Below are positions 5,883 to 13,442 of a stretch of 64,000 nucleotides of DNA, piece by piece. Origin of the DNA: Clostridiales bacterium. GTDB lineage: Bacteria > Bacillota > Clostridia > Christensenellales > UBA1242. The notes under the pieces are model-generated. The model was not told the DNA's origin. It did not search any database and saw nothing but the letters and a program-made list of their open reading frames with translations. Both the position numbers and the translations under genes were made by a program. The stretch's first letter is position 1, and every line of letters starts with the position of its first letter. The stretch lies in NCBI GenBank assembly GCA_015069325.1, contig SVIV01000002.1:62001-126000 (forward strand), in the 5' to 3' direction.

Positions 5883-6581
5883 CTATCTAAGAAAATACTT
5901 GTCAATATAAAAATTTGACCAAGGCTTTTTATCGCTGTCCGGTGGACACGCAAAAGTCATTTTTTGTTTTGTTGTTGGATGCGTAAATTCTAGACGGCCA
6001 GCCCATAACCCAAGAGTCTTTGATGCTCTTGTTTTTTCTTTTCCGTATTTATTATCCCCATACAACGGACAATTAATTCCTGCAAGTTGAACCCTGATTT
6101 GATGCCCCCTACCAGTAAGTGGCTTTACTTCTAAGAGAGCATCTTCTCCTTCGATTTGAAGCACTTTATAGTCAAGCTCTGCTTTTTTTGAGTTTTTTTC
6201 TGAAATTGGCACTATTTTTACAATATTTTCTTTTTCATCCTTCTTTAAATTATGCACAAGATGGTCTTGCTTCGCCTGTGGAACTTTTGAAGTAACAGCA
6301 TAATAAACTTTATTCATTGTCTTCTCCTTAAATTGCTCACAAAGTCTTCCTGCTGCTTTTGACGTGCGAGCAAAAACCATTACTCCACCTGTTGGACGAT
6401 CAAGCCTATGGACAAGCCCAATGAACGCTTCTCCTTCTTTATTATATTTTTCCTTAACATATTCCTTAACCATTGTAAGCATATCTTTATCGCCAGATTC
6501 ATCTTCTTGAGTTGGCACATTATGCGGTTTTACCACAACTATAATGTGATTATCTTCATATAAAACATTTAATTTTTCCAT
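5883..6581 (-). CDS. RluA-family pseudouridine synthase
   Basis: LVHRLDRPTGGVMVFARTSKAA, LTGRGHQIRVQLA; start MEKLNVLYEDNHIIVVVKP. Confidence 0.92.
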   Translation of the reverse strand: MEKLNVLYEDNHIIVVVKPHNVPTQEDESGDKDMLTMVKEYVKEKYNKEGEAFIGLVHRLDRPTGGVMVFARTSKAAGRLCEQFKEKTMNKVYYAVTSKVPQAKQDHLVHNLKKDEKENIVKIVPISEKNSKKAELDYKVLQIEGEDALLEVKPLTGRGHQIRVQLAGINCPLYGDNKYGKEKTRASKTLGLWAGRLEFTHPTTKQKMTFACPPDSDKKPWSNFYIDKYFLR

Positions 6582-7420
6582 AATTTCAATCCCCTTGCCC
6601 CACAAGGAAGCACAATTTTTTCATCAGTAGGAAGCCCTATTTCGTCAGCATCAATACCACCTTCGCCAAACACAAGAGTCAGTATATTTGAAAGAACACT
6701 TGCTTGAAGCCCGGTCGTATAAGATGATATCAACACAAATAACGGATCATCTGAAAGAACTTCTTTTGTAAGCTTCACAAAATCAAACAGGTTGTCTTCA
6801 AGCTTCCACATTTCACCATTTGTCCCCCTACCATAACTAGGTGGATCCATAATGATTGCGTCATAACGATTACCCCTTCTGATTTCTCTTTCTATAAATT
6901 TTTTACAGTCATCGATGATATAACGAATGTTATCTATTCCGTTTGCAAGAGCATTTTCTTTTGCCCTTTCAACCATACCTTTGCTTGCGTCAACGTGAGT
7001 AACTTTTGCCCCTGCTTTTGCACAAACAACGCTCGCACCACCAGTATAAGCAAAAAGGTTTAAAACCTTAATTTCTCTTCCACTATCTTTGATGGCTTTT
7101 GTCATATCATTCCAGTTTACTGCCTGTTCCGGAAAAAGCCCAGTATGCTTAAAGCCCATTGGTTTAATAATAAAATTTATTCCATTCCACGAAATCTTCC
7201 ACTCTTCCGGAACACGTGAAAGAAATTTCCATTGACCACCACCTGAATTTGAACGAATATAATGTCCATCAAGCCCTTTGTAAGCAGACATTTTGATTCC
7301 ACTATGCCAAATAACTTGTGGGTCAGGTCTTAATAAAGTGTATTTACCCCATTTTTCCAACTTTTCCCCATCACCAGTAGCAATTACTCTGTAATCTTCC
7401 CAATCCTTTGCAATTTTCAT
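6569..7420 (-). CDS. Class I SAM-dependent methyltransferase (RlmI/RlmK-like rRNA MTase)
   Basis: VLNLFAYTGGASVVCAKAGAKVTHVDASKGMVERAKENA, IIMDPPSYGRG. Confidence 0.88.
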   Translation of the reverse strand: MKIAKDWEDYRVIATGDGEKLEKWGKYTLLRPDPQVIWHSGIKMSAYKGLDGHYIRSNSGGGQWKFLSRVPEEWKISWNGINFIIKPMGFKHTGLFPEQAVNWNDMTKAIKDSGREIKVLNLFAYTGGASVVCAKAGAKVTHVDASKGMVERAKENALANGIDNIRYIIDDCKKFIEREIRRGNRYDAIIMDPPSYGRGTNGEMWKLEDNLFDFVKLTKEVLSDDPLFVLISSYTTGLQASVLSNILTLVFGEGGIDADEIGLPTDEKIVLPCGARGLKLWKN

Positions 7421-7509: not shown

Positions 7510-7550
7510 ATTGACAAAATTTACCCATTATTATATAATTGATTATATAA
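7510..7550 (+). promoter_or_regulatory. Consensus sigma-A promoter (TTGACA-N17-TATAAT) overlapped by two ATTATATAAT palindromes
   Basis: TTGACA 7510-7515, TATAAT 7533-7538; palindromes at 7529-7538 and 7541-7550 (12-bp period). Confidence 0.8.
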
Positions 7551-7578
7551 TAAATTATTTAAAAAAGGAGAAAAATTT

Positions 7579-8016
7579 ATGGCACTTAATTACAGAAACA
7601 ACGGGAATGGGAATACAATCATTCCAAAGCTTGTTAAAAAGGACAACAAATATTACTATATGGACATTGATGGTTCTATCAGCGACGGATTCGTAAACGC
7701 AACAGTTTATGCTGGCGGATTTAGCTTGGTCAAAACAACTTCAAACAAAACATCTTTTCAATTTAGAGATATGCTTGGCAATCTCTCTTTAAAGAAAACA
7801 CAAGTGGGCAAAGACTTCTATGAATTTTGGAGACAAAATCTTGCATTCGAAGCACTAAAGCCTGAATATTTTGTAAATGATAAATTCTATAACGTTGTAA
7901 AAATGATTATGGTTGAAAGAGCAAAACCTTTAGCTCACTATCAAATTCAACGTTGCGACGAAAAAAGAGAATTAGGAATAAAACTCTTGATAGCTGCAAC
8001 TGAAAATAATAAATAA
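7579..8016 (+). CDS. Tandem paralog 1 (uncharacterized; shortest, no tail motif)
   Basis: SD aaaggag; VYAGGFSLVKTTSNKTSFQFRDMLGNLSLKKTQVGKDFYEFW aligns to the next four ORFs. Confidence 0.85.
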   Translation: MALNYRNNGNGNTIIPKLVKKDNKYYYMDIDGSISDGFVNATVYAGGFSLVKTTSNKTSFQFRDMLGNLSLKKTQVGKDFYEFWRQNLAFEALKPEYFVNDKFYNVVKMIMVERAKPLAHYQIQRCDEKRELGIKLLIAATENNK

Positions 8017-8035
8017 CATTTACAAAGGAATAACT

Positions 8036-8593
8036 ATGAAAAAATTAATTAGATATGGAATAGCAAGTCAATTTTTCTTCTTAGACGAAAACGGAAATAA
8101 AAGCGAACTTTTTCAATCTGCAACGGACTATAAATTGGGCTTTGCAATTGTTCACAAATCAAAAAACGATAAATCTCAATATAGGGATTTACTTGGAAGG
8201 CTTAGCGATAAACCTACTTCCAGCGGAATCTGCTTTTACAATTTCTGTTTAGATCAAGTTGTTCTTGAAGATATACCTTTAATTCATTTTTCAGACACTA
8301 TTTTTTGTGAAGGAATCAAAAAACAAATTGTTGAAAAACTAAAGAAAAAAGCCCTCAATGAATATAAATCTGGTTGCACTCTTGATAAAGAAAATTACGC
8401 CAAAATTTTAAACAAACAATTTGCATTTATTGAAAGAATGCACACTGAAGCATTAAAGTGCGAAAAACGTCAATTACTTAAAGCAGAAAAAGAAAAACAA
8501 AAAAATCTCTTACAAGAGCAAGAACAATCTACAAAGGAAAACTTAAGGAAGCAATCCTTAACAGAAACGCTTGACTACTTGGAGAATGTATAA
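8036..8593 (+). CDS. Tandem paralog 2 (uncharacterized)
   Basis: SD aaagga; KLGFAIVHKSKNDKSQYRDLLGRLSDKPTSSGICFYNF, HFSDTIFCEGIKKQIVEK, tail TETLDYLENV. Confidence 0.88.
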   Translation: MKKLIRYGIASQFFFLDENGNKSELFQSATDYKLGFAIVHKSKNDKSQYRDLLGRLSDKPTSSGICFYNFCLDQVVLEDIPLIHFSDTIFCEGIKKQIVEKLKKKALNEYKSGCTLDKENYAKILNKQFAFIERMHTEALKCEKRQLLKAEKEKQKNLLQEQEQSTKENLRKQSLTETLDYLENV

Positions 8594-9168
8594 TGATTAA
8601 TGCAAATATTTACCACTTCATAAAACCAAAACTTGACGGCATCTCCGCTCGCAACAGTTTTTGGTATGAAGATTATAGACAAAATAAAAGCGAATGTTTT
8701 GTAAAGGCACATCAATATGTTGACGGATTTGCTATCGTAAAAAAATCAGCTGAAGATGACGATCAATACAGGGATTTGCTTGGAAGAATCACAAATGAAA
8801 AATCGGAAAGCGGAAACATCTTCTTCAAATACATATGCAGTCAACTGGAAATCGAAGATATTGCCCCTTTACATTTTGCAGATGACATCTTTTATACAGG
8901 AATCAAGGACGCACTTATATTGAAAGCAAAAATTCAAGCAAGAGTTGAATTTAACGAGGGAAAAGTGTTAAGCAAAAATCAATATCAGCAAGATATTGAA
9001 AACAACTTTGAAGCAATTGAAACAAAAAGAATCGTTGGGCTTGCTATGATTAAAGCAAAGGAAAGGGCCGAAAAAGAGCTTGCAAAAAAACTCAAACAAG
9101 ATGAAAATAAAAAAATAATTAAACAACAGGCTTTTGACGAAACATTAGATTATCTTGAAAGTTTATAA
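8593..9168 (+). CDS. Tandem paralog 3 (uncharacterized)
   Basis: Start overlaps previous stop (TAATG); VDGFAIVKKSAEDDDQYRDLLGRITNEKSESGNIFFKY, HFADDIFYTGIK, tail DETLDYLESL. Confidence 0.88.
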   Translation: MINANIYHFIKPKLDGISARNSFWYEDYRQNKSECFVKAHQYVDGFAIVKKSAEDDDQYRDLLGRITNEKSESGNIFFKYICSQLEIEDIAPLHFADDIFYTGIKDALILKAKIQARVEFNEGKVLSKNQYQQDIENNFEAIETKRIVGLAMIKAKERAEKELAKKLKQDENKKIIKQQAFDETLDYLESL

Positions 9169-9179
9169 GGAGAAATAAT

Positions 9180-9716
9180 ATGAATTATTATGAGATTGGT
9201 TTTGTTTGCAATAAGGAAAAACACGAATATTACTTTGTAATGAATGGTCAGGAAAGCGAACGTTTTTATGAAGCCAGCTTTTATCAAGATGGTTTTGCCA
9301 AGGTAAGAAAAACTAAAGATTCAGAATTGCAATACATAGATTTGCTTGGAAGAATAACAAATGAAAAGACTAAAAGTGGAGAACAATTTTTTCAATACAT
9401 ACTTGGAGAAATTCCATACGAATCATTGTTTTTAGATCATTTTTCCGATAACTTGTTTTGTATAGGGGTAAAACAACAAATCTTGCAAAAAGCAAAGACT
9501 CTTGCTAAGGAACGATATAATTCAGGAATTCCTGTTAATAAAAAGGATTTTGAAAAAGCCATAGAAAAAACATTTAAAGAAATTGACCTTAAACACTCAC
9601 TTGCTTTAGAAATAGCTCAATCTAATGCTGAAATAGATGAAATATACAAAAACAAGAATTCTGGTGAAGATGAATATGAAGATACCATGACTTTCCTAGA
9701 TGGATTTGCTTTATAA
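9180..9716 (+). CDS. Tandem paralog 4 (uncharacterized)
   Basis: SD aaggag; QDGFAKVRKTKDSELQYIDLLGRITNEKTKSGEQFFQY, HFSDNLFCIGVKQQILQK, tail EDTMTFLDGF. Confidence 0.88.
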   Translation: MNYYEIGFVCNKEKHEYYFVMNGQESERFYEASFYQDGFAKVRKTKDSELQYIDLLGRITNEKTKSGEQFFQYILGEIPYESLFLDHFSDNLFCIGVKQQILQKAKTLAKERYNSGIPVNKKDFEKAIEKTFKEIDLKHSLALEIAQSNAEIDEIYKNKNSGEDEYEDTMTFLDGFAL

Positions 9717-9725
9717 GGAGAACTG

Positions 9726-10280
9726 ATGAAAAACAGCGAAATGCCGATACTATACAACAACCAAAAAAGCTCTTTCTATATAGACATTGACGGAACAGAA
9801 AGCCAACATTTTTGGTATGCTTGCGGATATTATAAAGGCTTTGCTGATGTATGCCCTACTTTTAAAACAACAAAATGTCGTGATTTGCTTGGCAGGCTGA
9901 CCGATAACGAAACAAGAAGCGGAAAAATATTTTATAAATTTTTCATTGAAGAAATTTCGCTTAAAGATATTGATTTAATATGCTTTGCAGATGAAATATT
10001 TTGTGAAGGTGTAAAAAAAGAACTTATTCGTAGGCAACAAGCAAGAGCAAAGGAATTGTTTCAGAAAGGCCAAAAGGTCAGCAAATCAAAAGTAAAACGG
10101 GAAATAGAGCACGATTTTAGTTATATTGAACACAAACACAAAAAAGCAAGCACCCTATTGACAAGAAAAATTAAAACAAGAAAAACTATCAATAATGAAA
10201 AAAAAGAAACAAAGAAACAACCAGACTACTCACAACAATACAACGAAACAAAAGATTATTTAGACAGTTTAATTAAATAA
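9726..10280 (+). CDS. Tandem paralog 5 (uncharacterized)
   Basis: SD aaggag; YKGFADVCPTFKTTKCRDLLGRLTDNETRSGKIFYKF, CFADEIFCEGVKKELIRR, tail NETKDYLDSL. Confidence 0.88.
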   Translation: MKNSEMPILYNNQKSSFYIDIDGTESQHFWYACGYYKGFADVCPTFKTTKCRDLLGRLTDNETRSGKIFYKFFIEEISLKDIDLICFADEIFCEGVKKELIRRQQARAKELFQKGQKVSKSKVKREIEHDFSYIEHKHKKASTLLTRKIKTRKTINNEKKETKKQPDYSQQYNETKDYLDSLIK

Positions 10281-10313
10281 TAAAAAAAGATGCTGATTTA
10301 AGCATCTTTTTTA
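10280..10313. terminator. Bidirectional terminator between paralog operon and ileS
   Basis: aaaaaaagatgctgatttaagcatctttttta. Confidence 0.8.
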
Positions 10314-13300
10314 TTATACTTTTTGCATATAAACATTAACAGTCATATTGTTAAATGTCAACGAAGTGTTAAATTCCCCTGCACTTCCTTGTTTAAAGCT
10401 ATCTGCAAGAAGAGTTTTAACAAATTCTCCTTGTCTTTCCATTAAAATTTGCACTGCTTTTTCATCGCCACCGATTTCAAGCGAAATATGATTTACGACT
10501 TCAAGTCCGCTATCTTTTCTTAAGTTTTGCACTTTGCTTACAAATTCATTTACAAGGCCTTTTTCTAAAAGTTCTTCAGTCAAATTTGTATCAAGCACAA
10601 CAGTTAAAGTCCCGTTTGTTTCAGAAGAATATCCTTCCTTATTTTTAAGTGCAATAAGCAAATCTTCTTCCCCTATTTCAACGTTAACTCCCGCCACTTC
10701 AAAAGCAAGTTTTTCGCCTTTTCTAACAGTATTTACAGCTTCAACAGGATTAACTTTTACCAAATACTCTCTGATTCCGCCAAGTTGTTTACCATACTTT
10801 GGCCCAAGAGTTTTAAGTTGTGGTTTTAATTCATATGAAACATACTCATCTGCATCTTTTAATATTTCAACTTGTTCAACATTAAGTTCATCTTCAATTA
10901 ATGCTTTAAGTTCATCGTCAAGTTTCAGTTCATTTGCACAGCAAATCATAACCTTTGAAAGAGGTTGACGATTTTTTACATTGCTTGCACTTCTGCAAGA
11001 ACGCCCTAAGTTTACAATTTCAAGCACTTCATTCATACCTTCATTAAGGGCCTTATCAATCATACTTTCATCAGCCTTTGGATATGATGCAAAGTGAACA
11101 CTTTCAGGCGCATTTGCATCAAGATTGCGAACAAGATTTTGATAGATTTCTTCTGAAATAAATGGAAGGAATGGTGCCAACAATCTTGAAAGACTTGTAA
11201 GAACTTCATACAAAGTTTTATAAGCTGCAATTTTGTCATCACTTTCTTCGCTGCCCCAGAATCTTTCTCTTGAACGACGAATATACCAGTTTGAAAGTTT
11301 ATCCACAAAGTTTGTGATTTCTCTTGATGCTGAAAGCATATCAAGTTTATCCAAACTCTCCGTAACAAATTTTACAAGAGCATTGTATTCTGAAAGAAGC
11401 CATCTATCAAGGAAAGAAAGTTTGCATTTTTTCAAATCATATTTTGTTGGATCGATTTTGTCAATTTCTGCATAAAGCACATAGAATGCATATACGTTCC
11501 AAAGTGTGCCCATAAATTTACGTTGAAGCTCAACCAAATTATCTTCGTTGAATGCAATTCCTTGCCCTGCAACGCAGTTATTATAGAAATACCATCTCAA
11601 TCCGTCAGCACCTTCTTTGTCTAAAACTGACCAAGGATCAATTCCATTTCCAAGAGATTTAGACATTTTAAGACCGTTTTTATCTAATACCAATCCTAAA
11701 AGATTGCAAGATTTATATGGGCTCTTTCCAAATATTGCAGTATTAACCGCCTGAAGAGTATAGAACCAACCTCTTGTTTGATCAATCGCTTCACTAATAT
11801 AATCTGCAGGGAAGGATTTTTCAAATTTTTCCTTATTTTCAAAAGGATAATGATATTGTGCAAAAGGCATAGCACCGCTATCAAACCAGCAGTCCATAAC
11901 TTCAGGAGTTCTTCTCATTGTCTTTCCGCATTTTGGACAAGGGAAAGTAAGCGGATCGAGATGTGGCTTATGCAAATCTTTTGGTCTTGTGCCAGTAAGT
12001 TTTTCAATTTCGTCCCAACTTCCCATAACGTGAATATGTCCACATTCACAAGTCCAGAAAGGAAGTGGTGTTCCCCAATATCTATTTCTTGAAATTCCCC
12101 AATCAATATTATTTGCAAGGAAATTTCCCATTCTACCTGCTTTAATATGATCTGGACACCAATAAACACCATTATTGTTTTCAACCATTTGCTCTTTTAT
12201 TGCAGTTGTTTTAATAAACCAAGCTTCTTTTGCATAGTAAAGCAGTGGGCTCTTACAACGCCAACAATGTGGATAAGAGTGCTCGAAAGGTAAAACTTTA
12301 AACATTTTGCCTTCATTTTCAAGCTTTTCAATTACATATTTATCTGCTTTTTTAACAAACATACCAGCAAAGTCTGTTTTATCACTCATATTGCCAGCTT
12401 CATCAACAAGTTGAACAAAATCTATATCATATTTTCTGCAAACCTTGTTATCATCTTCACCAAACGCAGGCGCGATATGAACAATGCCTGTTCCGTCTTC
12501 TGTTGTTACATAATCATCAACAACAACGAAGTATCCCTTTTTAACTTCATCTTTAACATAATCAAAAAGTGGTGCGTATTTATGATATTCATATTCTTTG
12601 CCTTGTTTTCTTGAAATAATTTCATAAGAGCCTTCTTCAAAAAGCGTTGTAACAAGCTTTTCAAGCATAATATAGTTTACACCATTTGAAACAAGTTTAA
12701 CATATGTTTCTTGTGGATTCATACAAAGTGCCACATTTGATGGAAGTGTCCAAGGTGTAGTTGTCCAAACAATAAAATATGTATTTTCTTCTTCCAAACT
12801 TTTAAACTTAACAAACACAGAATTTTCTTTTAAAATTTTGTAGTTGTCTCCATTTTCAACTTCCATTTTTGAAAGAGTAGTTCCGCATCTTGGGCAGTAA
12901 GGGCTAATTTTATGTCCTTTATAGATAAGTCCTTTTTTATCCATTTCTTTTAAAGACCAGAAAATTGACTCAATATAGTTGTTATCATATGTAATGTATG
13001 GATTATCCATATCAACCCAATAACCAATACGTTTAGTAAACTTTTCCCACATTCCTTTGTATTCCCAAACAGAATTGCGACAAAGTTCAATAAACTTATC
13101 TACACCATATTTTTCGATATCTTGCTTACCATTAAGGCCAAGTTTCTTTTCAATTTCAACTTCTACAGGAAGGCCGTGAGTATCCCAACCCGCTTTACGA
13201 TAAATATAATGCCCTTGCATAGACTTGTATCTTGGAATTATATCTTTCATAACACGAGTTAAAAGGTGGCCAATGTGTGGCTTTCCGTTTGCCGTTGGCG

Positions 13301-13442
13301 GACCATCATACAAAGTATATGTTTTATCGCTTCCTTCGTTTAATTTTAATCCTTTGTTTACGATATCATTCTTTTCCCAGAATTCAAGGATTTTATCTTC
13401 ATTTTTCAAGAAGTCTAATTTCGTATCAACTTTATTATACAT
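10314..13442 (-). CDS. ileS: Isoleucyl-tRNA synthetase
   Basis: DGPPTANGKPHIGH (HIGH), KMSKSLGN (KMSKS), full length 1042 aa. Confidence 0.97.
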   Translation of the reverse strand: MYNKVDTKLDFLKNEDKILEFWEKNDIVNKGLKLNEGSDKTYTLYDGPPTANGKPHIGHLLTRVMKDIIPRYKSMQGHYIYRKAGWDTHGLPVEVEIEKKLGLNGKQDIEKYGVDKFIELCRNSVWEYKGMWEKFTKRIGYWVDMDNPYITYDNNYIESIFWSLKEMDKKGLIYKGHKISPYCPRCGTTLSKMEVENGDNYKILKENSVFVKFKSLEEENTYFIVWTTTPWTLPSNVALCMNPQETYVKLVSNGVNYIMLEKLVTTLFEEGSYEIISRKQGKEYEYHKYAPLFDYVKDEVKKGYFVVVDDYVTTEDGTGIVHIAPAFGEDDNKVCRKYDIDFVQLVDEAGNMSDKTDFAGMFVKKADKYVIEKLENEGKMFKVLPFEHSYPHCWRCKSPLLYYAKEAWFIKTTAIKEQMVENNNGVYWCPDHIKAGRMGNFLANNIDWGISRNRYWGTPLPFWTCECGHIHVMGSWDEIEKLTGTRPKDLHKPHLDPLTFPCPKCGKTMRRTPEVMDCWFDSGAMPFAQYHYPFENKEKFEKSFPADYISEAIDQTRGWFYTLQAVNTAIFGKSPYKSCNLLGLVLDKNGLKMSKSLGNGIDPWSVLDKEGADGLRWYFYNNCVAGQGIAFNEDNLVELQRKFMGTLWNVYAFYVLYAEIDKIDPTKYDLKKCKLSFLDRWLLSEYNALVKFVTESLDKLDMLSASREITNFVDKLSNWYIRRSRERFWGSEESDDKIAAYKTLYEVLTSLSRLLAPFLPFISEEIYQNLVRNLDANAPESVHFASYPKADESMIDKALNEGMNEVLEIVNLGRSCRSASNVKNRQPLSKVMICCANELKLDDELKALIEDELNVEQVEILKDADEYVSYELKPQLKTLGPKYGKQLGGIREYLVKVNPVEAVNTVRKGEKLAFEVAGVNVEIGEEDLLIALKNKEGYSSETNGTLTVVLDTNLTEELLEKGLVNEFVSKVQNLRKDSGLEVVNHISLEIGGDEKAVQILMERQGEFVKTLLADSFKQGSAGEFNTSLTFNNMTVNVYMQKV

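Follow-up and report, generated by a model that had tools for sequence, protein, structure and literature searches.

The window, a stretch of 64,000 nucleotides from the 0.99 Mb genome of an uncultured Clostridia bacterium, contains five consecutive genes on the same strand, set between the genes of a methyltransferase and of isoleucyl-tRNA synthetase. A sequence-only reading had placed an operon of five tandem paralogs at 7566–10313, and we find the five ORFs, all intact and of the lengths given there, at 7579–10280. The locus is organized as follows:

6569–7420, minus strand: left flank, divergent SAM-dependent methyltransferase, RlmI/RlmL-like by sequence reading, present in 58 of 61 genus genomes
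7511–7539, plus strand: sigma-70/A-type promoter TTGACA-17-TATAAT, 12/12 match to the consensus
7579–8016, plus strand: ORF1, 145 aa, WG-like beta unit and start of a cap
8036–8593, plus strand: ORF2, 185 aa, beta unit, cap, long charged helix and ETLDYL motif
8593–9168, plus strand: ORF3, 191 aa, same layout as ORF2, AlphaFold pLDDT 93.2
9180–9716, plus strand: ORF4, 178 aa, same layout as ORF2, most acidic (net charge –9)
9726–10280, plus strand: ORF5, 184 aa, same layout as ORF2, most basic (net charge +10)
10283–10312, either strand: bidirectional rho-independent terminator with a 12-pair stem and T-runs on both sides, common to the array and the convergent ileS
10314–13442, minus strand: right flank, convergent isoleucyl-tRNA synthetase (ileS), present in 57 of 61 genus genomes

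The array is thus bounded by a perfect-consensus promoter and a strong terminator inside otherwise conserved housekeeping genes, as had been recognized from the sequence. Each ORF has either its own Shine-Dalgarno-like sequence (GGAG/AGGA, upstream of ORF1, ORF2, ORF4 and ORF5) or a coupled start, the stop of ORF2 and the start of ORF3 sharing one base (TAATG). The perfect promoter, the close spacing and the single terminator define the layout of an operon, from which we infer that the five genes are transcribed into one RNA.

The five proteins form a single alignable family, in which 17 columns (the start methionine counted) are invariant and pairwise BLASTP scores lie between 53 and 118 bits, compared to a best score of 32.3 bits for shuffled sequences (n=2000). 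The proposal of an ordered four-part pattern in all five members applies to ORF2–ORF5 but not to ORF1, which is limited to the beta part and the beginning of the cap and has neither long helix nor ETLDYL motif at its C-terminal end. This motif is likewise missing in K1, the relative of ORF1 in genome G014. Conservation amounts to 41% in both the cap and the C-terminal motif, 36% in the beta part and 25% in the long helix, whose periodicity gives no clear coiled-coil signal. No signal peptide or membrane segment is seen in the five sequences and the proteins are by appearance cytosolic.

In searches against Pfam, NCBIfam, PADLOC and PHROGs, none of the five ORFs gave a match above cut-off. The view that most of the sequence belongs to no recognizable family is therefore correct for the single sequences, and a well-characterized family matching all five did not emerge. 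This includes the WG_beta_rep family (PF14903; gathering cut-off 25.6 bits), which matched none of the proteins up to an E-value of 1, and the PADLOC models for anti-phage defence. Sub-threshold matches to RecX_HTH1, Mrr_cat and XDP2 were attributed to chance, as was a Csf-like match of locus L043. A phage origin found no match either, whether by tblastn of ORF3 against phage records or by comparison of the five with PHROGs, and a search of PDB sequences with a profile of the cap returned nothing usable (best E 0.17).

The suggested resemblance of the core to a single WG-repeat unit is borne out by relatives of the family. Since none of the single-unit proteins matches WG_beta_rep directly, this link runs through intermediates, which carry two to about nine N-terminal repeats ahead of the same cap and several of which exceed the Pfam cut-off with scores of 30.9, 34.3 and 108.8 bits. 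The highest-scoring of these (L079) contains a canonical array of 34-residue WG repeats, and the fetched loci form a graded series leading from such arrays via proteins with 2–4 repeats to the minimal form of the window. When aligned by hhalign to a canonical WG protein with cap, the window family matches in both the repeat and the cap (E 8.8e-6, probability 83%). Together with the scores of the multi-repeat relatives, this alignment identifies the five as divergent, minimal WG-repeat proteins with a helical cap found at the level of genus and family. Their core '.YxDxxGk....F..A..Y..GFA.V.k' corresponds to the WG repeat, whereas they differ from WG_beta_rep proteins by containing about one to two repeats (four strands in the model of ORF3) instead of a tandem array of units of about 34 residues, which is found only in relatives, by scoring below the cut-off on their own and by three additional parts, namely helical cap, long helix and C-terminal motif, none of which corresponds to a library family. 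The family is best filed as a variant of WG_beta_rep that is homologous to it but lacks its Pfam score and array features. WG_beta_rep itself is listed in a modelling paper among the repeat families without known structure (PMC8078820).

A profile of the five proteins, used to search 61 genomes, detected relatives only in the same genus. Both of the nearest matches stem from uncultured Clostridia, roe deer colon being the source of one of them, and several genus relatives contain a row of N-terminal repeats followed by an end module of the window type. The A2 profile, which covers the last repeat and the cap, identified positives in 23 of 112 genus genomes and in six of 297 genomes sampled from the order, of which four belong to the same genus and one to the same family, while matches of a canonical-cap profile in 392 genomes of the class were confined to the same genus. 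The cap thus appears so far limited to this genus and family. The FloA protein of genome G006 (L051), a false match to the A1 profile caused by its coiled coil, was dropped.

The WG-cap proteins that the genus encodes at tuf-sepF-lspA and tig-clpP-clpX loci share the terminal repeat and cap 'yRDllGr.t..kT..G...Y.y...i' with the five but mostly contain more repeats, lack the ETLDYL motif and reside at other loci. The order tuf, WG-cap protein, sepF, lspA and rluD-like gene is found in six genomes (L072, L073, L074, L075, L044 and L046), with the WG-cap gene directly preceding sepF in five and separated from it by two genes in L072, where SepF was confirmed by Pfam. In the genome of the window, a WG-cap protein is encoded between ftsZ and spoIIGA with a gene for a sporulation-type sigma factor downstream (L039 3391–4110), and the same interval holds one or more WG-cap proteins in the related genome G012 (L041 1058–2605), both genomes being about 1 Mb in size. 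These neighbours would fit a wider family of accessory factors in cell division or sporulation, with the array in the window as a mobile branch. The neighbourhood of SepF, SpoIIGA and FtsZ is real, yet the close ftsZ-linked form occurs in two genomes only, other copies adjoin clpX, dapF, uvrC/tmk and tatD (as read from the sequence), the cap profile is missing from most genus genomes (23 of 112 being positive) and the array itself possesses a separate promoter and is not adjacent to any division gene, so that we regard such a role as quite improbable. At four further loci (L065, L066, L067 and L068), tig-clpP-clpX is followed by two or three WG-cap proteins in tandem, and L065 and L066 hold an additional WG-cap protein beside dapF.

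Insertions in the slot between methyltransferase and ileS differ from lineage to lineage. As judged from the coordinates of its two flanks, it measures less than about 200 bases in many genus genomes, whereas copies of the window family number five in the window, three in G012 and one in G014. Elsewhere the slot is occupied by BspA-type leucine-rich repeat proteins (identified by Pfam in G067 and by sequence reading in G080) or by paralogs of about 220 aa, four in G079, two in G008 and one each in G032, G082 and G084. The latter resemble the window array in their site and their habit of forming tandem paralogs but constitute a separate family, which matches neither the window profile nor Pfam. 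These paralogs lie at L056 1086–4020 in G079 and at L059 1057–2550 in G008, and their family is found in 9 of 112 genus genomes. In G014, the single window-type copy is directly followed by a 602 aa protein without Pfam match (L042 8409–10217), which is a possible partner.

A copy number varying from five to one at a single site, fast divergence and the presence of other families in the same slot are features that would also be expected of an orphan array of diversified immunity proteins directed against secreted toxins of relatives and retained in varying number at a site of exchange; immunity-like proteins had been one suggestion of the sequence-only reading. This proposal gained no support: LXG toxins (PF04740), the class tested, are absent from all 112 genus genomes, no toxin is seen at the locus, the five proteins have no counterpart in PADLOC and relatives with the same cap are built into the tuf-sepF-lspA, clpX and ftsZ-spoIIGA clusters. 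The absence of LXG proteins from the genus and the location of relatives within housekeeping clusters both weaken this interpretation, which we consider very unlikely.

The expansion of the family was accompanied by strong divergence, as had been anticipated. ORF5 and R3 of G012 are orthologs (tree support 99/98), each being the last gene of its array and each carrying a net charge of +10, whereas ORF1 groups with K1, the single copy of G014 (86/92), and ORF2 finds its best match in G012 in R1. Between the window and G012, where synonymous sites approach saturation throughout, dN is 0.057–0.082 for the flanking genes, 0.44 for ORF5/R3 and 0.55 for ORF2/R1. The clear ortholog pair ORF5/R3 has thus changed 5–8 times faster than the flanks at amino-acid-changing sites. 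Across pairs of nearest relatives, dN ranges from 0.44 to 0.68 and pN (0.33–0.45) stays below pS (0.61–0.70), which indicates that the genes are selected as proteins. They therefore encode selected, fast-changing proteins, in comparisons whose synonymous sites are close to saturation. The array as a whole is best explained as a divergent family of WG-repeat proteins that expanded in tandem within this lineage. Patchy presence, fast change and absence from most relatives could also be encountered in a near-neutral family, whose tandem duplicates are kept by drift and serve no specific role. Such a scenario is hard to reconcile with five intact ORFs in a genome of this small size, a pN below pS, a conserved C-terminal motif and a perfect promoter, and we assign it a very low probability.

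The structure of ORF3, predicted by AlphaFold from nine sequences (pTM 0.80), contains two beta hairpins (strands 13–17, 22–26, 46–50 and 58–61) and helices at residues 72–81, 92–95, 98–121 and 128–190, the last of which spans 63 residues and is preceded by the helical cap. A fold search with this model found nothing similar in the PDB and nothing significant among viral folds, and a confident model without PDB match makes the fold worth solving. The model of a two-repeat relative is of lower quality (pLDDT 79.8), with an N-terminal half of low confidence, and its weak Foldseek matches to propeller-type proteins (E 0.01–0.02, best 0.011; TM 0.2–0.3) provide a hint only. This hint, the location of single-unit proteins in one operon, the complete arrays of their relatives and the charge differences between paralogs, ranging from –9 in ORF4 to the conserved +10 of ORF5 and R3, would be compatible with a hetero-oligomeric beta assembly, in which every protein supplies a single blade-like unit and a propeller-like or layered structure, with the helices holding it together, is completed by the paralogs jointly. 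The sequence-only reading had named a hetero-oligomer or a diversifying complex among its possibilities. We consider the beta assembly unlikely, as close relatives contain five, three or one copy, as the propeller matches are weak and come from a model whose N-terminal half is of low confidence, and as the ORF3 monomer is confidently folded on its own.

Our preferred interpretation, to which we assign a probability of about 40%, is a tandem expansion of WG proteins acting as cytosolic, non-enzymatic adaptors or scaffolds, which are possibly hetero-oligomeric and whose binding and co-assembly we infer from their architecture. Each protein combines about one to two beta hairpins of the WG type with a short helical cap, followed by a long charged helix and a conserved C-terminal helix motif (ETxxYLxsL), the last two of which ORF1 lacks. 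The conserved cap and C-terminal motif would engage one shared partner or each other, whereas the faster-changing remainder would provide each paralog with a partner of its own. The term adaptor is chosen by analogy to repeat proteins in general, since the literature searched contains almost nothing on the WG repeat and no functional paper. As a more specific and quite speculative version, the single-unit proteins of the operon might co-assemble into a mixed scaffold, whose fast-evolving subunits bind different partners, and which would, if true, amount to a modular counterpart of the genus's long WG-repeat arrays, built from swappable genes. Although catalogued, WG repeats have hardly been studied, and this genus, with its genomes of about 1 Mb and a series in which long arrays grade into single units while the helical cap is shared, offers a tractable system to ask for the role of repeat and cap.

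Finally, the tRNA synthetases located beside the methyltransferase in the genus are of two kinds. In about 31 genomes, the protein is 53–93% identical to the IleS of the window, while in 25 genomes, including the close relative G014 (L042), a second kind with 32–35% identity is found, mostly at the same site, which looks like a replacement by a distant IleS.
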